Shown here in pieces: positions 27,261 through 29,827 of a stretch of DNA of 51,427 bases (positions are counted from its first letter, which is position 1; each line of letters starts with the position of its first letter). The notes beneath the pieces were generated by a model. That model was not told the origin of the DNA. It saw only the letters and a program-made list of their open reading frames with translations, and did no database searches. The position numbers and the translations under genes are program-made. Origin of the DNA: Bacteroidales bacterium (GTDB lineage Bacteria; Bacteroidota; Bacteroidia; Bacteroidales; P3); contig JAISUE010000054.1 of the NCBI GenBank assembly GCA_031272245.1, positions 1 to 51,427 on the forward strand, read 5' to 3'.

Positions 27261-27692
27261 TTGTTATAATTTTGTTGATACAAGATAATTACGAAAATTA
27301 TCTTCTTATTTAGAGAAAGCAAAAATACATAAAAGTTTATAATACATTCTTCAATATTTTATGACAATTAAATTTATGATAATTAAAATGATTTTTCTTT
27401 ATTTAACCTGACATTGTAGAGTAAAAGAAATAATTGTATTTTTTCTTAATTTTATTGATGAAAAATAGTGTTTAAATTATATTTATCTTGATAAAAATTT
27501 GAAAATATATATATCTGAATTATTTATTACAGCAGTCGGTGAAAATAAATGTTTATTAAGACAGTTTAAGTTTTATGTTATATATATTTCAGATGTTACT
27601 GTCTGATTTTTAAAGTATTTTTTATCATACAATATAAAAATATTTGTTACGTTTTCCTTATGTAATTATTTATAAATTAAAAAATTTAATCT
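27261..27692. other. Divergent regulatory region between the U32 and DAHPS operons
   Basis: 432 bases. It holds a 7-bp inverted repeat GATAATT/AATTATC (27284-27290 / 27296-27302) near the U32 start and a minus-strand -7 box TATTTTTG (27327-27320). The right half is AT-rich without a clean promoter. No riboswitch or peptide leader was recognised. Confidence 0.5.
27320..27327 (-). promoter_or_regulatory. -7 box for the U32-PHP-uvrB operon
   Basis: The plus-strand CAAAAATA reads TATTTTTG leftward, matching TAnnTTTG, about 60 bases upstream of the U32 start. Confidence 0.4.
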
Positions 27693-27863
27693 ATGGAAGA
27701 CGAATACATTTTAGAACAAATTAATGAATGGGAAGACGATATGTTTGACGCATATTGTACAATGGACACTGACATAGAAATGAATGAAAGTTTATCTGTT
27801 AGAATCATTAACAGGCTTATTGAGCTTTCAAGATTTGTAGACTATTATTGTCCGACTGTCTAA
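27693..27863 (+). CDS. 56-residue acidic protein coupled to DAHP synthase
   Basis: The ATG at 27693 opens a 56-codon frame starting MEDEYILEQINEWEDDMFD, strongly acidic at the N-terminus, with an amphipathic helix (SVRIINRLIELSRFVDYY) and three cysteines. The stop TAA shares its last base with the ATG of the DAHP synthase gene (TAATG), the standard arrangement for translational coupling. No family recognised and no aromatic-codon run, so it is not a classical attenuation leader. It could be a small partner or regulator of the enzyme, or an unrelated operon member. Confidence 0.6.
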   Translation: MEDEYILEQINEWEDDMFDAYCTMDTDIEMNESLSVRIINRLIELSRFVDYYCPTV

Positions 27864-28948
27864 TGCAAATAAATAAATTAGACTCAATTAAAGATAATAA
27901 ACCTTTTATTATTGCAGGACCATGCAGTGCAGAAAGTAGATTTCAAGTAATTGAAACAGCAAAAGAAATTGTAAAAGAAAGTGAAAACATTGTAAAATGG
28001 TTCAGGGCAGGGGTATGGAAACCGCGTACACGACCTTCTGATTTTGAAGGCGCAGGAAAAAAAGCTTTGCAATGGCTTGCAGAAGTTAAACAAATTACAG
28101 GATTATCTGTATGCACCGAAGTAATAAAGCCCAATCATATTGAAAAATGTCTCGAAAGTAGAATGGACGGGCTTTGGATTGGTGCGAGAACAACTGCTAA
28201 TCCTTATTTAGTACAGGAACTTGCAAACACTTTACATACTCTTTCTGCGACAAACATTCCAATTTTTGTAAAAAATCCTCTCAATCCGGACTTGAATCTT
28301 TGGATTGGAGCAATGGAACGGTTTTATAATGCAGGATGTACAAACATTATAGCTGTACATAGAGGTTTCTGTTTGACCGATAACGGTAAGTATCGCAATA
28401 CTCCGCTTTGGCAGATACCCATAGAATTAAAAAGGTTGTTTCCTGATTTATTCTTAATTTGCGATCCAAGTCATATTGCAGGAAAAAATGAATATGTGCA
28501 GGAAATTTCTCAAATGGCAATGAATTTAAGCTTTGACGGTTTGATGATAGAGGTGCATAATTGTCCTGCTTCTGCAAAAACAGACAGCAAACAGCAGTTG
28601 AATCCTTCACAACTAAAAAAACTTTTAACAGAGCTTTATGTTCCGAATGATGGAAAAAAATTATTAGCGACTATAACATCTATTAGAGAGAAAATAGATT
28701 GCATTGACACAGAAATTATTTCCCTTTTGCAACAACGAATGCAATACAGTGAAGAATTGGCAAAAATAAAATGGAAAGAGAACATGAGCCTCTATCAACC
28801 ACAACGTTGGAAAGAGTTGCTGCAAAAAATAATTGAACAGGCAAAACAAAAAGGTTTGTCGGAAGATTTTATCAAATCACTTTTTGAACAAATACATGAG
28901 GAATCAATAAATGTACAGAATAATACTGTAGCAAAGAAACCAAAATAA
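27863..28948 (+). CDS. Bifunctional DAHP synthase / chorismate mutase (type II)
   Basis: 361 residues from ATG 27863; the frame is open 15 bases upstream but the overlap-coupled ATG fits best. The N-terminal KDSA/AroF-type DAHP synthase barrel (about 5-260) shows FIIAGPCSAES, WFRAGVWKPRTRPSDFEG, WIGARTTANPYLVQ, FVKNPLNPDLNLWIGA, ICDPSHIAGKN and LMIEVHNCP. The C-terminal AroQ-type chorismate mutase (about 270-355) shows IREKIDCIDTEIISLLQQRM. It condenses PEP and erythrose-4-P, and rearranges chorismate to prephenate. The fusion is common in Bacteroidota and Firmicutes and usually lets prephenate inhibit the synthase. It is followed 6 bases later by prmC. Confidence 0.94.
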   Translation: MQINKLDSIKDNKPFIIAGPCSAESRFQVIETAKEIVKESENIVKWFRAGVWKPRTRPSDFEGAGKKALQWLAEVKQITGLSVCTEVIKPNHIEKCLESRMDGLWIGARTTANPYLVQELANTLHTLSATNIPIFVKNPLNPDLNLWIGAMERFYNAGCTNIIAVHRGFCLTDNGKYRNTPLWQIPIELKRLFPDLFLICDPSHIAGKNEYVQEISQMAMNLSFDGLMIEVHNCPASAKTDSKQQLNPSQLKKLLTELYVPNDGKKLLATITSIREKIDCIDTEIISLLQQRMQYSEELAKIKWKENMSLYQPQRWKELLQKIIEQAKQKGLSEDFIKSLFEQIHEESINVQNNTVAKKPK

Positions 28949-28954
28949 CAATAA

Positions 28955-29827
28955 ATGAGAATACAATCCAATAAATTAAAAGATATAATAACTTTTACAA
29001 AAGACGAATTGAAAACCATTTACTCCCCAAATGAATGTCGCTCGTTAGCTTTAATCTTAATTGAATATTATGCACATATTTCTGTTGCGGAGGCTCTTTC
29101 TGCTCCCGAAACAACAATAAATGAAAGCGAACTTTTGGAAATAAATTTTGCAGTTAAAGAATTGAAAAATCACAAACCTGTGCAATATATTTTAGGGCAA
29201 ACAACTTTTTGTGGCATAACCATAAAAGTAAATGAGTCTGTTCTTATTCCGCGTCCGGAAACGGAAGAACTGGTTAATATTATTATTGAAGAGAATAATA
29301 ATTTTAACGGTAAGATTGCCGATTTAGGTTGCGGGAGCGGATGTATAACTCTGGCTTTGGCTCATTTTCTGCCGAATAGCGAAGTTACGGGTTTTGATTT
29401 GTCTGAAAAAGCATTGTCTGTTGCAAAAGAGAATAGTGTTTCTTTGGGAGAAAATAATCATTTACGAGTAAAGTTTTGTAAAAAGGATATTTTGACGCCG
29501 AATTTTACTGATGAAACCTTTGACATTATTGTTAGTAATCCTCCATACGTAAGAGAAAAAGAAAAGACAATGATGAAAAAAAATGTCCTTTGTTTTGAAC
29601 CGCAAGAGGCATTGTTTGTTCCGAACGAAGACCCATTAAAATTTTACAGGGCGATAGCAAAATTTGCAGAGAAAAATCTTAACTCCAAAGGGAAAATCTA
29701 CTTGGAAATCAATGAAAATTTCGCAAAAGACACCTTAAATCTGTTTATTTTTTCTAATTATAAATCAAAGATAATTAAAGACTTATTTGCGAAAGAAAGA
29801 TTTATTTACCTTGAAAAGTTAAACTAA
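28955..29827 (+). CDS. prmC: Release factor glutamine methyltransferase PrmC/HemK
   Basis: 290 residues. It methylates the Gln of the GGQ motif in release factors RF1/RF2. Seen: N-terminal helical RF-binding domain (about 1-75), PVQYILGQTTFCG (family hallmark), VLIPRPETEELV, the SAM-binding IADLGCGSGCITLALA, and the active-site NPPY in IIVSNPPYV, then LEINENF near the end. Normal length. Last gene of the coupled set with the 56-residue protein and DAHPS-CM; a tRNA-Ser with its own promoter follows. Confidence 0.95.
   Translation: MRIQSNKLKDIITFTKDELKTIYSPNECRSLALILIEYYAHISVAEALSAPETTINESELLEINFAVKELKNHKPVQYILGQTTFCGITIKVNESVLIPRPETEELVNIIIEENNNFNGKIADLGCGSGCITLALAHFLPNSEVTGFDLSEKALSVAKENSVSLGENNHLRVKFCKKDILTPNFTDETFDIIVSNPPYVREKEKTMMKKNVLCFEPQEALFVPNEDPLKFYRAIAKFAEKNLNSKGKIYLEINENFAKDTLNLFIFSNYKSKIIKDLFAKERFIYLEKLN

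Follow-up and report, generated by a model that had tools for sequence, protein, structure and literature searches.

The stretch of DNA analysed here, referred to as the window, comprises 51,427 nucleotides of contig JAISUE010000054.1 (assembly GCA_031272245.1) from a Bacteroidales bacterium, and carries on its + strand a small open reading frame (ORF) that overlaps the gene encoding a DAHP synthase-chorismate mutase (DAHPS-CM, aroF-CM). The small ORF spans positions 27693 to 27863 and consists of 56 codons from ATG to the TAA at 27861-27863, with the product MEDEYILEQINEWEDDMFDAYCTMDTDIEMNESLSVRIINRLIELSRFVDYYCPTV. An earlier note on this DNA had placed the ORF at 27693-27866; its start is correct, and its end lies three bases too far. 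The same note had described a TAATG stop/start overlap, which is present at 27861-27865, base 27863 being both the last base of the TAA and the first base of the enzyme ATG (27863-27865). The enzyme gene (27863-28948, + strand) matches DAHP_synth_1 (1.6e-38) and CM_2 (4.3e-26), the chorismate mutase domain being C-terminal, and it encodes the sole DAHP synthase found in the 1.8-Mb window genome (G000), where a second DAHPS match (C47, 2.6e-10) is taken to be a KDO8P synthase. An alternative TTG lies upstream at 27848 in the enzyme frame; translation of the enzyme probably starts at the ATG at 27863. The next gene, at 28955-29827 on the + strand, encodes a PrmC/HemK-like methyltransferase (named from the sequence alone) and lies outside the conserved unit, and the genes 3' of DAHPS-CM vary among the other species of the genus.

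The gene 5' of the small ORF is divergent in the window, and the small ORF therefore opens the transcription unit. A 13-base element, TCATACAATATAA, is found at 27625-27637 on the + strand in what would be the promoter region or the 5' leader. It is kept in the genus, occurring exactly and once each in genomes G000, G001, and G002, 54-55 bases 5' of the small-ORF ATG, and its spacing to the small ORF is constant although the upstream genes differ. The element could be read in these three genomes; the G003 contig begins too near the small ORF. As a signal for a wider regulon the element was rejected, as exact matches are unique to the small-ORF locus and one-mismatch matches elsewhere occur at the control level.

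The encoded protein is acidic, as had been claimed, with 15 D/E residues against 3 K/R and a computed pI of 4.05, and no membrane segment is apparent in its 56 residues. A model of the protein obtained with AlphaFold contains two helices (pLDDT 70, pTM 0.35), of which the second, residues 36-52, corresponds to the conserved core and is predicted with high confidence, the remainder being of low confidence. A Foldseek search with the predicted fold gave no match to a solved structure, and no relatives of the small protein were found among solved structures. The seven F/W/Y residues are scattered. Classical attenuation had already been considered unlikely, and an aromatic attenuation leader is rejected here given the absence of an aromatic run, the one-base overlap that leaves no room for a terminator, and an Rfam search that returned no match.

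All four species of the genus were found to carry the small ORF, and the three other copies are 35-43% identical to that of the window and each time overlap the same DAHPS-CM gene. The gene 5' of the small ORF changes from a MurA-like gene (G001) to a D-Ala-D-Ala-ligase-like gene (G002) and the divergent gene of the window, these names being given from sequence. The search among relatives that the earlier note had proposed thus found the ORF present with its frame open, and its absence or interruption was not the outcome. Differences among the species at codon positions 1, 2, and 3 amount to 0.38, 0.31, and 0.57, and dN/dS is 0.15-0.35 for closer pairs in related genera when the overlap is excluded; the small ORF is under purifying selection. 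A W-[ED]-x-D motif and the helix positions are retained in the genus, and a C-terminal ...LN tail is lost in the window copy and in G001. An open frame of this length is by itself weak evidence of a gene at 32% G+C, the random-frame probability of 56 open codons being about 0.009 per frame. Being short and set in a genome of low G+C, the ORF might be read as a chance frame or an annotation artefact. That reading has a negligible probability, the chance explanation being already refuted by the occurrence of the ORF at the same place in four genera, by purifying selection, and by homologs found phylum-wide. Judged from its conservation and from the profile matches described below, the small ORF at 27693-27863 is a real, conserved gene.

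Among 149 genomes of the taxonomic family, 32 gave strong matches to the small protein with an adjoining DAHPS-CM gene, which is every strong match (32/32), and these comprise every genome of g1 (the genus of the window), g4, g5, and g11 found to have DAHPS-CM. Overlap or immediate adjacency was kept in 29 of the 29 loci read in detail; measured from the final base of the small ORF, the DAHPS start lies between -28 and +2. Registers of -28, -12, -6, 0, and +2 were observed, so that more than one reading frame is used. Because the adjacency is kept in different frame registers, the loci suggest that the overlap arrangement itself has been selected, beyond what inherited sequence would account for. 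The 29-base overlap (register -28) is common to two g1 species, g4, and several g5 genomes, which points to one origin of the junction. The earlier note had also claimed translational coupling. The overlap on which that claim was built is kept across the four genera in differing registers, and the coupling, as read from this arrangement, is probable; a start so close to the terminating ribosome would suit termination-reinitiation. Shine-Dalgarno motifs are little used in Bacteroidetes, whether for de novo initiation or for reinitiation (PMC6728339).

The genes in g4, g5, and g11 are arranged as ECF sigma factor, small ORF, DAHPS, with the sigma stop 68-242 bases 5' of the small-ORF start. Orthologs of this sigma factor were found throughout the phylum (best NCBIfam match PRK12513, below its cut-off), and in many genomes of the phylum a small ORF of 45-82 codons lies directly 3' of the sigma gene. 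Such pairs are found without DAHPS in Flavobacteriia, Sphingobacteriia, and other Bacteroidales, and no DAHPS gene was found beside the small gene outside of the four genera. The core of the family approximates P-x-x-x-[TV]-[IV]-x-x-[IL]-[LI]-N-[YF]-S-[KR]-[AS]-[LF], and a C-terminal ...LN is very frequent. This -LN stands just before the stop across classes (small ORFs of loci L110-L188), and a binding motif or a C-terminal degron is possible.

The relationship between the DAHPS-linked and the sigma-linked proteins was examined with profiles. The test profile was built from the DAHPS-linked small proteins of g4, g5, and g11 only, the window's genus being left out, and, so that nothing was chosen by eye, it was run against every ORF of 35 codons or more (2885 in total) in 79 sigma loci from across the phylum. 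Of the 25 top matches, 24 lie on the sigma strand no further than ~430 bases 3' of the sigma gene. The same holds for most of the 30 that follow, nearly all of the ~50 top matches being the ORF immediately 3' of sigma. Among the 232 ORFs of the window, this profile gives the small ORF the top score (2e-6, runner-up 0.07); with the window sequence included in a profile, the similarity to the sigma-small-DAHPS relatives reaches 2e-19. When the DAHPS-linked set, window included, was compared with the phylum set profile to profile, the probability was 96.9% and E was 1.3e-10 over the full length. The phylum-wide profile alone does not detect the small ORF among the window ORFs, and the family placement of the window copy therefore rests on the intermediate genera. 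The window protein thus resembles the sigma-linked proteins directly through g4, g5, and g11, and the phylum set by profile-profile comparison; we conclude from these similarities that it is homologous to the tiny sigma-linked proteins of the Bacteroidota and is strongly diverged. No Pfam or NCBIfam model scored above its cut-off for any member of the family, and a Pfam match to Orthopox_F14 (E 0.0085, below cut-off) was taken as chance. A recognisable anti-sigma domain was not found with Pfam, NCBIfam, or Foldseek; a new domain would look alike.

The occurrence of the small protein follows the sigma factor. In a set of 37 genomes of the family, counted whether the genes are linked or not, the small protein is present in 23 of the 24 with the sigma ortholog and in none of the 13 without it (Fisher 4e-9, not corrected for relatedness), and 11 of these 13 have DAHPS-CM. 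Comparison of the two lists for all 149 genomes, also not corrected for relatedness, found the small protein in 103 of 115 with sigma and in 3 of 34 without (both were present in 103 genomes, sigma alone in 12, the small protein alone in 3, and neither in 31). By these lists the small protein and the sigma ortholog each occur in 7 of 12 genera, the same seven, and the agreement at the level of genera stands despite the caveat on relatedness. Many genomes from the order's other families carry sigma and gave no small-protein match. The small gene is often unlinked from sigma, yet retained (g1, g2, g6, and part of g3), a retention that would be difficult to account for if the protein acted on DAHPS. 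In g2 (G015), for example, a well conserved copy (phylum profile 7.7e-9) lies apart from both sigma and DAHPS at 1943-2140 on the - strand of locus L217.

In the window's genus the small ORF does not lie directly 3' of the sigma ortholog as it does in g4, g5, g11, and the phylum. The window genome does encode the sigma ortholog, on a different contig from the small ORF (G000:C62:35223-35810, locus L088), and its product shares 65% identity with the sigma encoded in the linked operons. No small ORF was found behind the sigma gene at L088. In G002 (locus L092) a superoxide dismutase-like gene is found 45 bases 3' of sigma on the sigma strand, at the usual place of the small ORF (reverse complement, 2142-2720). 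Upstream of sigma, three species of the genus (L090, L091, and L092) carry a second ECF-type sigma gene together with genes for a Spy-like protein and for a ~100-residue protein that probably has a membrane segment, these names being from sequence only.

Additionally, a leader motif, TAT[AC]G-N(7-12)-[AT]YTAC-TTT, was observed ~40-130 bases 5' of the sigma start in 54 of 106 phylum loci, against 1.6 expected by shuffling, and it lies at -44 in L088. An Rfam search of six loci gave no match for it, and as a regulon site it was rejected, being found elsewhere in seven genomes at the control level; it may be an mRNA leader that acts in cis or a site of autoregulation. The sigma-small pair of Flavobacteriia is flanked by a UvrA-like gene, which is divergent, and by an endonuclease III-like gene, which is convergent, and the flavobacterial sigma operon ends with the small ORF because the next gene is convergent. 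The same kinds of neighbours are found in Sphingobacteriia, where the endonuclease gene is co-directed (L113, L121, L131, L143, L149, L165, L176, L181, and L186 are among the examples of this repair-gene neighbourhood; names again from sequence). The pair keeps this DNA-repair neighbourhood over much of the phylum.

We favour, with a probability of roughly 0.6, the reading in which the 56-residue protein regulates the conserved, stress-type ECF sigma factor as a small cytoplasmic protein and is most probably a mini anti-sigma or sigma-binding cofactor. The protein would bind the sigma factor and restrain or tune its activity; binding is proposed because this is the usual behaviour of proteins encoded second in ECF operons, and that the effect would be inhibition rather than activation is a guess made by analogy. 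The sigma-small pair is phylum-wide and is therefore older than the junction with aroF-CM, which would have been gained behind an ancestral sigma-small order. The junction appears to have arisen in the line to g1, g4, g5, and g11. A quick sigma tree sets these four genera apart from g2, g3, and g6 on a long supported branch, without settling the branching order within them. If aroF-CM was joined ancestrally, the departure of sigma in g1 is therefore secondary, and the sigma gene would have moved elsewhere in the window's genus. There the frames of the regulator and the enzyme overlap behind one upstream region; the two would be made together, with most translation of DAHPS-CM coming from ribosomes that have just terminated at the end of the small ORF and with sigma supplied in trans. 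One of two options for the window's genus is that sigma activity would follow aromatic biosynthesis; the other is the ribosome-loading role of the small ORF taken up below. The window copy, which is strongly diverged and has lost the conserved C-terminal tail, may also have changed its role.

The earlier note had instead expected a regulatory subunit or chaperone of DAHPS-CM, whose proportions to the enzyme the coupling would maintain. It is true that the small gene stays with aroF-CM in all four species of the genus though the flanking genes differ and sigma is gone, and that every strong match in the family abuts aroF-CM. The phylum-wide relatives, which adjoin a sigma gene with no DAHPS nearby, argue against such a subunit, as do the 11 genomes of the family that have DAHPS-CM and lack both sigma and the small protein, so that the small protein was not found to accompany the enzyme independently of other partners. 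Additionally, the fused chorismate mutase domain already provides dimerisation and allosteric control in this class of DAHPS (PMC12202928). An enzyme subunit is thus quite improbable, and a regulator of sigma is the more likely role. It is less far-fetched, and still unlikely, that in the genus the chief role of the small ORF is to be translated as a leader and so load ribosomes onto aroF-CM, with a product left over as a relic of the sigma operon. The retention of the overlap in five registers would be expected if coupling itself were selected, and the missing tail in the window copy and G001 and the limited use of Shine-Dalgarno motifs fit such a leader. Constraint on the amino acids nonetheless persists in the genus, where codon position 3 differs more than positions 1 and 2 and the W-[ED]-x-D motif and helix positions are preserved, and the sigma-linked relatives have no need of such a leader.

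A fuller picture can be drawn tentatively, at somewhat poorer than even odds: a phylum-wide and undescribed family of mini sigma regulators, joined by overlap in one Bacteroidales clade to the shikimate entry enzyme, would form one translational unit that sets both sigma activity and pathway capacity. If the protein regulates sigma, the clade would provide an example from nature in which a stress-type regulator is linked to the synthesis of aromatic amino acids. A small-protein family without a Pfam or NCBIfam model accompanies a highly conserved Bacteroidota ECF sigma factor, and a regulator of this sigma would offer a handle on a phylum-wide response. The locus also cautions that a small ORF before an enzyme gene need not encode a subunit of that enzyme.

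Two-protein complexes of DAHP synthase and chorismate mutase exist, for example in Mycobacterium, and a small partner of DAHP synthase such as these contain is the sort of model underlying the first interpretation. Unlike that system, chorismate mutase is already fused to the window enzyme, and the small protein matches no chorismate mutase family. Among ECF systems, no partner like the small protein was found for the conserved sigma in the literature searched. EcfO-Reo of Bacteroides and Phocaeicola likewise pairs an ECF sigma with a downstream regulator in Bacteroidales, and was rejected as the closest relative since Reo spans both membranes (PMC13114119) and thus differs from the 56-residue protein in size and topology. 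The nearest reported case, by description, is PG1659-PG1660 (RpoE) of Porphyromonas gingivalis, an anti-sigma and sigma according to the title of Dou et al. 2021 (cited in PMC8579941), in which a hypothetical protein is encoded adjacent to a Bacteroidales ECF sigma; compared by description only, it serves as a lead. A transmembrane protein, BT1816, has been described as the partner of BT1817, with which PG1660 has been grouped (PMC12596196), and PG1659-PG1660 may therefore be another family. The general layout of ECF sigma/anti-sigma pairs is sigma gene first and regulator second (PMC7712824). The small protein resembles an anti-sigma factor by this layout, lying behind its sigma gene in most relatives and co-occurring with it, and is not filed as a member because no domain model tried recognises it. 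In contrast to these pairs, it is only 45-82 residues long across the family, has no recognisable anti-sigma domain, is often unlinked from its sigma gene, and in the clade of g1, g4, g5, and g11 is joined by overlap to a biosynthetic gene.
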